A stretch of DNA of 51,968 nucleotides from Deltaproteobacteria bacterium (GTDB lineage: Bacteria; Desulfobacterota; Syntrophobacteria; Syntrophobacterales; Thermodesulforhabdaceae). Below the pieces are notes generated by a model that saw only the letters and a list, made by a program, of their open reading frames with translations, ran no database searches and was not told the DNA's origin. The stretch covers positions 1-51,968 of the forward strand of contig JAFDGW010000026.1 of the NCBI GenBank assembly GCA_019309115.1. Direction: 5' to 3'. How positions within the stretch are numbered: position 1 is the stretch's first letter; each line of letters begins with the position of its first letter. Positions 185 to 3,975 of this stretch are shown in pieces. The position numbers and the translations under genes were made by a program.

Positions 185-2389
185 TTAAAATTTAAAACTA
201 ATTGATCCACCAAAGGTTCTATCAGTCATTGGAAAACCTCGCTGATTTTCGTAGTCCTCATTAAAGAGATTCTTTACATAGAATTTAAATGTAGCTTCTT
301 TGATATGGATATCTCCTAAGATCTTGCTTAAATTCAACTTCTGTTCTATTGCAAAATCAAAAACATGATACCTATCTATAGGCTCATCATATGAGATGAG
401 ATTTCCTGACCCTGGTGGTACTTCTTCATAAACATGGGCAACCTGTTTGTCCTGAAATCTATAATCAAGCATAAGGATGGTATTTGGAAGAGGACGAAAA
501 CGCAAACCCGCATTTACACGGTGTTTGGCACGCTCATCGATTGCTTCTTCTCCAGCTGGTTCACCTCCCATATTTCTCAATTCCAAAAATGAATAACCAA
601 TATAGAAAAACAGATTGTCCAGAATATGTCCGTTAATTTCTAAATCTAATCCCTGATGTCGAATCTCATCAAGATTGATCTTGTAATCACTCAGTTCAAG
701 GCCAGGAGGTACATGATGCCCTGGAGATGGCGTATATTTAGCAAACTTGCTGTTGTATGCCACATAATCATAGATCTTATAAAAATGATAATCTGCTTTC
801 ATAGTGATATCTTTGAAAAGTCTTCTTGTAAGTATAAAATCGAAGGCAATACCATCTTCTGGCTTAACCCACGCACCGTGGGGGATATCTCTTGGTCAAG
901 GCATGCAATGTGGTATTGGATTCCATATCCTACTTATACCAACCGATAAGCTGGTATCCCTTAAATAAGGTGAAAACCTATCAAGCTTGCAAGTTAGAAA
1001 TGATTTTGGCACCAGTTCATTCCTGTGCCTTTTGATAAAAGGATAATCCTCGCCTGTGATCCATGGTTTGCTATGTCTGTAATCCCAGTTAAAAAACCAT
1101 AACTTGGCATCCTCATATCTAAGTCCTAAGGTAAGGATTAGCCATGGAGTGATATCCCACTTGTCCTGAAGATATATTGCCTTGAGATCAGCTCTTTTAT
1201 GGTTGGGCGTGTGATAACCGTATTGAGAATAGCTTTCCGATCTCTCATGACCCCTCCACATCTGAATAATATCAAAACCTACAGTAAATTCATGTTTCCC
1301 AATTTTTATCCTATCCTGTATCTTTCCTCCTCCTTGCCTATGCTGAACGTCGTAGTGGTTACTTCTTACAAATGCTGGCTTAACTTCAGGTCCATACCAG
1401 CCAGTTCCTGGAGCAAGCCAGGTTCTTTCCCAATCCTGTCTTTCATAATAAGCAGCAAGAGTCCAGGTTCCAATTGGAGTTGGCTGTTCCCATCTCAAGC
1501 GGTAAGAGTACTCCTTTCTATCCCTCTCAGGTTCTTGCCATGGCCAATATCCCCAATATCCTTTTGGGGTATCTGGATAGTCTGGATCATAGTCGTGCAT
1601 TCCCGGCTTATTTGTTACTGGTGTTTCCTGGGTTTCATCCATAAGTGCCATATCTAAGGTAACAAAGCCATCATAAGGGAGGAGGTATCCAAGCCTGCAG
1701 GCATAGTTGTTTATATCAGTGCTGTTGTTTCGCAAGTATCCGTCTGTTTCATAATGCTGAAAACCAAAGTCATAAATAAAAGATTGAATTCCGCCCTCTG
1801 TAGTAAAGGAATGAATTTGTGTGCCGTACGATCTGAAGCCACTTTCCATTCTAATATCTGGTTTGAGGCTCAAAAACTTATGTGGTTTTTTCGTTTTTAA
1901 ATTGATTGTTCCACCTTCACTTTTGCCCCAGTAGAGTGCAGAATGAGGACCAGGAATAATTTCAATCTCTTCTATGCGCCAAAGGGGCAAGCTTCCAAAA
2001 TGAACCTGTGTTGTTCCAAACATCCCAGGCCTTTGGATCGTCATTCCATCTATCGCAATGCTAAAACGCATAGGATCAAAGCCTCTCATATATATTTGAT
2101 CATACTCTGGAACAAGATCGCTTCTTCCTCGAAAGTCAATTGTTGGACGGGTCTTTAAGATATCAACAATATTTTGTGGGGTTCCAGGAATTTTGTATTT
2201 TTCTACATTTATCGTTGTGGTAGAAGGATCAAGAACAATTTCTTGTTCTAGCTTGGGAGCTGTAACTGTTACTTCTTCGAGCTTTAAAGCCTTCTTTTGC
2301 TTTTTATCCACATTCTGAGCCAAGACAAGAGCAGGAATCACAACTATTGCTATTCCCAAAAGAAAAACAGTTCGATTCAATTTTTTCAT
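185..2389 (-). CDS. TonB-dependent outer-membrane receptor, interrupted by one in-frame TGA
   Basis: Outer-membrane active transporter expected to import a metal chelate or cofactor using TonB energy. The N-terminus is a signal peptide (residues 1-24), followed by a TonB-box-like EEVTVTAP, a plug domain (about 45-170, with TTTINVEKYKIPGTPQNIVDIL and IYMRGFDPMRFSIAIDGM) and a beta-barrel ending in the typical terminal Phe (GGSISFKF). Read straight through, the frame is 734 residues, normal for the family. The only interruption is a TGA at 896-898 (codon 498). The reading frame is identical on both sides, so this is not a frameshift. The residues around it are HCMP-TGA-PRD, so the stop would form Cys-x-x-Sec if decoded. 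A nonsense mutation (for example Trp TGG to TGA), selenocysteine and a sequencing error are all possible. It lies 23 nt downstream of the DUF4198/methylase gene and probably shares its leader. Confidence 0.85.
868..882 (-). other. Hairpin just downstream of the in-frame TGA (bSECIS-like geometry)
   Basis: On the mRNA strand, 13 nt after the TGA, CCCACG-GTG-CGTGGG forms a perfect 6-bp stem. If the closing pair opens, the stem is CCCAC/GTGGG with loop GGTGC. A stem at this distance with a G at the start of the apical loop fits the general bacterial SECIS description (apical G roughly 16-37 nt after UGA). The hairpin is seen in the sequence. Its role is inference, since it also lies in coding sequence and short GC-rich hairpins occur by chance. 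Confidence 0.4.
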
Positions 2390-2412: not shown

Positions 2413-3975
2413 TTACCTGTTTAAGAAGTCTCCAACATAAACCAAGCTCTCAAAAGGCAATTTCTGATTACCTACTTTTGACAAGATGTCGGAAAGTGTT
2501 CCTTCAATGACCTTTTGTTTCTTTTTATATCCTGCATGCAAAACAAGAGCTATTGGTGTATTGATAGGATAATGAGCAGAAAGATTTTGAACCAGATCAG
2601 CTAACTTTGTGCCTCTTACAAAGGGCATAAAGATTACCAAAGTTGCCCTGTGGCTTGCTAATCTCTCAATGGTATCAGTTTTTGCTAATCCAGGTAGATC
2701 AGGCATGGTTAAAATAACTGATTTTGTGTCTTTCCCAGATGTAACCCCCTTTTTCAAGGCTGCGTTAGCTGCATTAAAGGAGCTGAGTCCGGGTATAATA
2801 ATTGGTTTCATCTCTTTGAATTCTTTGAGGATCCAAACCCATGGGCCATAGATGAGGGGGTCTCCATGACCGAGAAAGGCTACTGTTTTTCCATCCTTAA
2901 CCGCACGATATACTTGAGCAATGATTTGAGCACGTGCCTTTTCACTCCTTAGAAACTTCTTTAGCTCCTTTCCCTTAAAATCAGATGCCTTTTTCCCATA
3001 GCCAAACCATATCCAAACACCTTTTGGTGGTTCGATTATCTTTTTGCCTTCAAGTTCTTTAGCAAATCTTTTACGTATACCCTCCCAACAGACAATCAGA
3101 TCCGCCTTTCGGATAGCATTTAGTGCCCTTATAGTGATAAGGTCAGGATCACCTGGCCCTACACCTACAAGGTATATCTTTCCTTTCTTTGAATTGCTTG
3201 CAGCAAGGTTTGGTGATGCCAAAAAACCCAAGGTAAATGTTGTTGTATACATATATTGATCAGCCTCGGATATATCAGGATAAGAAGTTTTGTGACCTAC
3301 CTTGAACATCCACTGCCCTTTGGCATTCAATTTGATACGCACAACTCCGTCTGGGTCACTTTTCTCTTCAATTGCCCAATGGTGTTTTTTATCTGTTCTA
3401 TAGCCGGTATAGATTGCCTGGAGATTGACTTTGGAAAGGGGTTTTCCTTCAAATAGAATTTTCAGAGGCAAAATATCACCGGATTTCAAGTTGGCTGGAT
3501 CTTTTAAAGGAATGATTTCAAGTGGTTCACCAGTCATATGAGAAAAAGCATTTGACTTTTCTCCAACTTCAATTAATGCCTTAGCACCCATAATGTATTT
3601 GAAACATGAAACAACGTTTTTAAGCTGTTTTTTATTTCCCAGTTTATGCCCTTCTGTAGTAATAGAAACAAACCCTGGTTTGAGCTTGGCAACAATTAGA
3701 TAAGCCCCTCTTAATTTTGGAACAAACCTGTAAAAGGAAGGAAAGATTTTTTCTAAGAAAATTTTTTCTCCTCTTGGACCAATAGCATAAACCTGTTCTA
3801 ACAATCCTTCACCTATAACCTGATCTCGTGGATACTTATGTCCCCAGCCAATCTCAACCCATACTGTATCCCCTACCTCAGGATAGTAATTACTTACATT
3901 TAACCAGAGCATATGAGCTTGCGCCGAAATAGCCATTAATGTGAAGAAGGTTAGTGTGGCAATGAGTCTTTTCAT
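2413..3975 (-). CDS. Secreted DUF4198 domain fused to a tetrapyrrole (corrin/porphyrin) methylase domain
   Basis: A 520-residue protein in two parts. Residues 1-20 are a signal peptide ending SAQA. Residues about 21-255 match the DUF4198 pattern (AHMLWLN start, GDTVWVEIGWGHKYP, beta-rich), a family often linked to cobalt or nickel uptake. From about residue 265 a tetrapyrrole methylase fold begins: IYLVGVGPGDPDLITIRAL is the classic glycine-rich N-terminal motif, followed by GHGDPLIYGP and IIPGLSSFNAANAAL, as in CbiF/CobM-type enzymes. A catalytic methylase should need cytoplasmic SAM, so a secreted copy is odd. It may be a periplasmic tetrapyrrole or corrinoid binding module, or the signal may be uncleaved. 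It is the first gene after a long structured leader and precedes the TonB receptor, which suggests a metal-tetrapyrrole uptake role. RBS is GGAGG. Confidence 0.75.
   Translation of the reverse strand: MKRLIATLTFFTLMAISAQAHMLWLNVSNYYPEVGDTVWVEIGWGHKYPRDQVIGEGLLEQVYAIGPRGEKIFLEKIFPSFYRFVPKLRGAYLIVAKLKPGFVSITTEGHKLGNKKQLKNVVSCFKYIMGAKALIEVGEKSNAFSHMTGEPLEIIPLKDPANLKSGDILPLKILFEGKPLSKVNLQAIYTGYRTDKKHHWAIEEKSDPDGVVRIKLNAKGQWMFKVGHKTSYPDISEADQYMYTTTFTLGFLASPNLAASNSKKGKIYLVGVGPGDPDLITIRALNAIRKADLIVCWEGIRKRFAKELEGKKIIEPPKGVWIWFGYGKKASDFKGKELKKFLRSEKARAQIIAQVYRAVKDGKTVAFLGHGDPLIYGPWVWILKEFKEMKPIIIPGLSSFNAANAALKKGVTSGKDTKSVILTMPDLPGLAKTDTIERLASHRATLVIFMPFVRGTKLADLVQNLSAHYPINTPIALVLHAGYKKKQKVIEGTLSDILSKVGNQKLPFESLVYVGDFLNR

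Follow-up and report, generated by a model that had tools for sequence, protein, structure and literature searches.

We analyzed a 51,968-nucleotide stretch of a deltaproteobacterial genome (hereafter the window; contig JAFDGW010000026.1 of assembly GCA_019309115.1) and found that the gene of a TonB-dependent receptor, at positions 185–2,389 of the minus strand, contains an in-frame TGA that, judging from the sequences compared, is almost certainly decoded as selenocysteine (Sec), which would make it a selenoprotein gene and not the product of a nonsense mutation. The coding logic, the SECIS element, the decoding machinery and the pattern of Cys, Sec and loss among relatives are all supported by sequence evidence. 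A metal or tetrapyrrole role for the receptor is a tentative proposal, whose cargo and chemistry we infer. TonB-receptor selenoproteins have already been described, and the window gene adds one member.

Results

On the minus strand, the receptor frame runs from an ATG at position 2,389, with a GGAGG ahead of it, through the TGA at 898–896 to a TAA at 187–185, giving 734 residues and a stop. In a genome search, exactly one TGA was found inside the complete 734-codon frame. The frame is the same on both sides of it, as an earlier reading made from the sequence alone had stated, and stays open for 236 more codons. Both parts expected of a TonB-dependent receptor are present: the Pfam domains Plug and TonB_dep_Rec_b-barrel score above their cut-offs, and the C terminus reads ...SFKF, with the final Phe in which outer-membrane proteins end. 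Translated only as far as the TGA, the receptor is a plug with half a barrel; with the TGA read through, the barrel domain scores 73 bits in place of 33 and is covered to its last position. In a listing of the other TGAs of the window flanked by open frame, none was seen to split a recognized domain.

The TGA (896–898, minus strand) is codon 498 and lies in the context P-H-C-M-P-TGA-P, where it is predicted to encode the Sec of an H-C-M-P-U motif. The partner Cys of the resulting CxxU, residue 495, is encoded by a TGC at 905–907 of the same strand, in agreement with the Cys-x-x-TGA that the sequence-only reading had proposed.

With the TGA treated as a residue, the receptor matches the profile NF049945 (TonB-dependent receptor, FCYXU motif-type) over its full length (880.4 bits against a cut-off of 825; residues 1–734, profile positions 1–697) and has its Sec at the equivalent place within a C-x-x-U. 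It differs from that family in its motif, HCMPU, and in the segment past the Sec (PRDIPHGAWVKPE), which resembles the non-Cys sister clade. The letters F and Y do not define membership, since they are missing from the window motif and likewise from those of three TGA-containing relatives (YCIIU in L100, VCEVU in L101 and YCQVU in L102). NF049945 is listed among the prokaryotic selenoprotein families in a 2026 review (PMC13188914), and NCBIfam holds four models of TonB-receptor selenoproteins, NF049944–NF049947. In 2025, deep-Sep predicted such a selenoprotein in Desulfosarcina sp. BuS5 (PMC12013277); that receptor, as published, resembles the window gene in the in-frame TGA, the Cys homologues and a SECIS-like structure downstream. 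The deep-Sep prediction and the four models supersede the initial remark that no TonB receptor selenoprotein was known. Across 395 genomes of the phylum, we found other receptors with an internal TGA, belonging to the FCYXU, CU and PCPU types. Assignment as a haem receptor was rejected, the score against TIGR01785 (TonB-dependent haem receptor) being 86.1 bits with a cut-off of 316.85.

A single-sequence query against the GTDB genome contigs returned no relatives of the receptor, while an alignment query of the same contigs returned 14 that were near full-length. At the column of the Sec, three of these have TGA (L100, L101 and L102), two have Cys (L097 and L099) and nine have Asn or Gln. A Cys three residues ahead of this column is found in the window gene and in all five Cys- or Sec-type relatives, which gives CxxU in the window and in the three TGA-containing genes and CxxC in the other two; it is found in none of the nine Asn/Gln-type relatives. 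In a maximum-likelihood tree including ten Asn/Gln-type receptors (the nine sampled at the column and one from genome G070), these form one clade with 99/99 support that excludes the window gene, which groups with the Cys- and Sec-types. In these alignments the Cys and its Cys/Sec partner are thus retained or lost together, as is predicted by a functional C-x-x-U and not by random nonsense mutation. The comparison of homologues proposed earlier therefore came out with Cys or TGA in five relatives and with Asn in the nearest homologue by identity (L089, 48%). The latter is not decisive because the monophyletic clade to which L089 belongs, and from which the window gene is excluded, has also lost the partner Cys. 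One family receptor (L056/L069; G100:C22:16376-18408) has halves matching different frames and is probably frameshifted or a pseudogene in that genome.

Downstream of the TGA lies a SECIS-like hairpin (CCCACG-GUG-CGUGGG; positions 868–882, minus strand) with a 6-bp stem and a predicted folding energy of –12.8 kcal/mol. It begins 13 nt past the TGA, at a suitable distance as had been noted before, and its loop GGU (877–875) is placed at +18, the same position as in Escherichia coli fdhF and in the selD of the host genome; a G or GGU in the apical loop is expected at about +16 to +21 in bacterial SECIS elements. The spacing is canonical. The stability by itself is not significant (z = –1.16); as its folding energy is not exceptional, the hairpin proves nothing alone. 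Of 8,682 background TGA triplets, a set that itself includes some real SECIS elements, only 0.31% had a GGU at +17 to +19 inside a loop closed by 6 bp or more. The three TGA-containing relatives have 7-bp stems of differing sequence with AGGU or AGGC loops.

The host genome, a 2.5-Mb draft that is 96% complete and in which the window comes from a single contig, encodes the full set of decoding components looked for in bacteria with selenoprotein genes. Profile scores were 77 bits for tRNA-Sec, 364 for selB, 606 for selA and 386 for selD, all above the curated cut-offs, so the search for selA, selB, selC and selD suggested by the sequence-only reading found every one of them. The selD gene carries an in-frame TGA of its own.

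The same genome contains a second selenocysteine TonB receptor, of the PCPU type (L002:1456-3516, equal to G000:C46:19718-21778, plus strand; NF049947, 1,227 bits). Its TGA lies in SRSYRLPCP-TGA-DYYWWARC and its frame continues to ...GVKF, with the TGA and a hairpin at the place corresponding to that in the window receptor. Its hairpin sequence (GGGCGCGGUGCGCGUCC) shares the apical CGGUGCG with the window hairpin but differs in the stem. The window receptor is thus like NF049947 (PCPU motif-type) in having the TGA at the corresponding place past a FRAP-like box and the hairpin loop CGGUGCG, and in the family having a member in its own genome; it is unlike NF049947 in scoring 184 bits where the cut-off is 800, and in having C-x-x-U instead of C-P-U. 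Across ten PCPU receptors of the phylum, the third base is invariant at just 3 of 101 fourfold-degenerate sites, and two of those three are the Ala and Arg codons (GCG CGG) of the stem-loop. This synonymous-site pattern is direct evidence that the PCPU family is under constraint at the RNA level, as a working SECIS would be. The second receptor also adjoins tetrapyrrole-methylase, DUF4198 and amino-acid permease genes. At another locus (L079:11031-11993, minus strand; G257:C69), a CU-type Sec TonB receptor adjoins an SsuA/NMT1-like substrate-binding protein whose gene is itself interrupted by an in-frame TGA (DVIVA-U-DPTATM). A SaoA-like ABC ATPase (266 bits; cut-off 360) is also encoded there, as is a 2-hydroxyglutaryl-CoA dehydratase D-type protein, and the gene order in L078 is similar.

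An AlphaFold model of the window receptor, built from a 15-sequence alignment (pTM 0.83), has residue 498 in the segment 491–510 between the barrel strands 479–490 and 511–525. By strand count, the Sec is predicted to lie in extracellular loop 7, a loop modeled with low confidence (pLDDT below 50 for residues 495–500). The closest solved folds in the PDB are BtuB, PqqU and the copper receptor OprC. By our reading, the flanking motifs SRIWNP and VKPE are FRAP-like and NPNL-like boxes. In HemR-type receptors, His461 sits between the FRAP box and the NPNL box. Conserved His128 and His461 accompany these boxes in the HemR/HmbR haem receptors, and both are thought to bind haem (PMC6449446). The window receptor would share with them, if the boxes are homologous, a variable ligand residue between the two boxes; it differs in that the proposed ligand is Cys/Sec and in its TIGR01785 score (86 of 317 bits).

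Directly upstream of the receptor, at 2,413–3,975 of the minus strand, is the gene of a predicted secreted protein fusing DUF4198 (PF10670) to a tetrapyrrole-methylase fold (PF00590). Many FCYXU and PCPU receptors have a homologue of either part, or of both, beside them, frequently along with an amino-acid permease, and genes with the tetrapyrrole-methylase fold are found beside the window gene and beside the majority of its relatives. The link is not universal, as the Cys- or Sec-type relatives L099, L100 and L102 have other neighbors. Tetrapyrrole-methylase-fold proteins beside TonB receptors were seen in the window and at L076, L080, L082, L083, L089, L092–L096 and L101; several have apparent signal peptides, and some are duplicated or fused to DUF4198. 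A SAM-dependent enzyme fold would be odd in the periplasm, and the protein may instead be a binding protein. After the CxxC homologue L099 (G022:C535, 8211-14198) come a ParA/CbiA-like ATPase and an ABC transporter of the Opp/Nik type; none of the transporter's members reaches the curated nickel cut-offs. A literature search for a module of tetrapyrrole methylase, DUF4198 and TonB receptor returned nothing specific.

Discussion

In the mechanism that we propose, UGA codon 498 would be decoded by SelA, SelB, SelC and SelD under the direction of the hairpin that follows it closely. This would place a Cys-x-x-Sec pair in extracellular loop 7, which is long, with the FRAP-like SRIWNP on one side and the NPNL-like VKPE on the other and, if the homology holds, near the position of the conserved haem-binding His of haem receptors. 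There, acting as a soft ligand or as a redox pair, it could capture a metal or a metallo-tetrapyrrole that TonB-driven transport then imports, and the adjoining secreted DUF4198/tetrapyrrole-methylase-fold protein might handle that cargo in the periplasm. It is the position of this secreted protein's gene beside the receptor that suggests capture of a soft metal or metallo-tetrapyrrole. The more specific version, in which the Sec of loop 7 is a direct soft ligand of a metallo-tetrapyrrole or organometal and the secreted neighbors are its periplasmic acceptors, is speculative and rather doubtful as it stands.

The Sec might instead have a redox role, as a Cys–Sec selenenylsulfide switch or a cell-surface reductase of the cargo, and not bind metal. 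CxxU is a classic redox motif, it is the motif of this receptor, and Cys and Sec are interchangeable at the column; yet the site falls in a predicted extracellular loop, and we know of no dithiol reductant on the extracellular side. The neighboring genes, moreover, are transport and tetrapyrrole/DUF4198 genes and not thioredoxin-like ones, and the PCPU and CU relatives differ in spacing (CPU, CU), a variation more in keeping with metal ligands than with a fixed CxxC fold. We regard the redox role as possible but rather unlikely.

A related question is whether the receptor imports no tetrapyrrole but a chelate of nickel or cobalt, or some other small metallophore. DUF4198 proteins have been linked to metal uptake, BtuB, PqqU and OprC are among the closest folds, and the Nik/Opp-type transporter beside L099 points in the same direction, although its scores below the nickel-specific cut-offs weaken the argument for nickel. 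The window gene and most relatives, however, adjoin tetrapyrrole-methylase-fold genes and not Nik genes, and we consider such a cargo unlikely.

Whatever the cargo, a nonsense mutation or assembly error in an ordinary receptor, with a hairpin present by chance, is a very improbable account of the TGA. The gene does come from one contig of a draft genome, its closest homologue has a sense codon, for Asn, and the z-score of the hairpin is modest. A chance TGA would nevertheless have had to hit the one column occupied by Sec or Cys in relatives, with the partner Cys kept at –3. It would also have needed a GGU at the canonical +18 and a host genome that has the Sec machinery and another receptor of like build. 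The 236 downstream codons are intact through the C-terminal strand and its Phe. With the wrong column pattern for a nonsense mutation and canonical SECIS spacing, we reject this explanation. General reassignment or suppression of UGA in the host, for example as Trp, could account for the one TGA read through but has a negligible chance of being right and is rejected, because TGA is an ordinary terminator that ends 18 of the 35 main ORFs of the window and is the commonest stop there, the Sec machinery is complete, and Trp stands at the TGA column in no relative.

Under selenocysteine decoding, the receptor TGA would be a sense codon. Standard ORF calling would read it as a stop and annotate the receptor as truncated or split. 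Selenoproteins of this kind have so far rested on prediction, and our analysis supports them independently through the synonymous-site constraint seen in a paralogous family, the gain and loss of Cys and Cys/Sec as a pair, and the presence of two such receptors in one genome. New here are the placement of the Sec in predicted extracellular loop 7 and the tetrapyrrole-methylase/DUF4198 neighbor. It is unusual for an import receptor exposed at the surface to contain selenium, and the conserved neighbors offer a testable guess at its cargo. If the proposed capture is true, these relatives of sulfate reducers would employ selenium at the cell surface in a high-affinity uptake route not described before.
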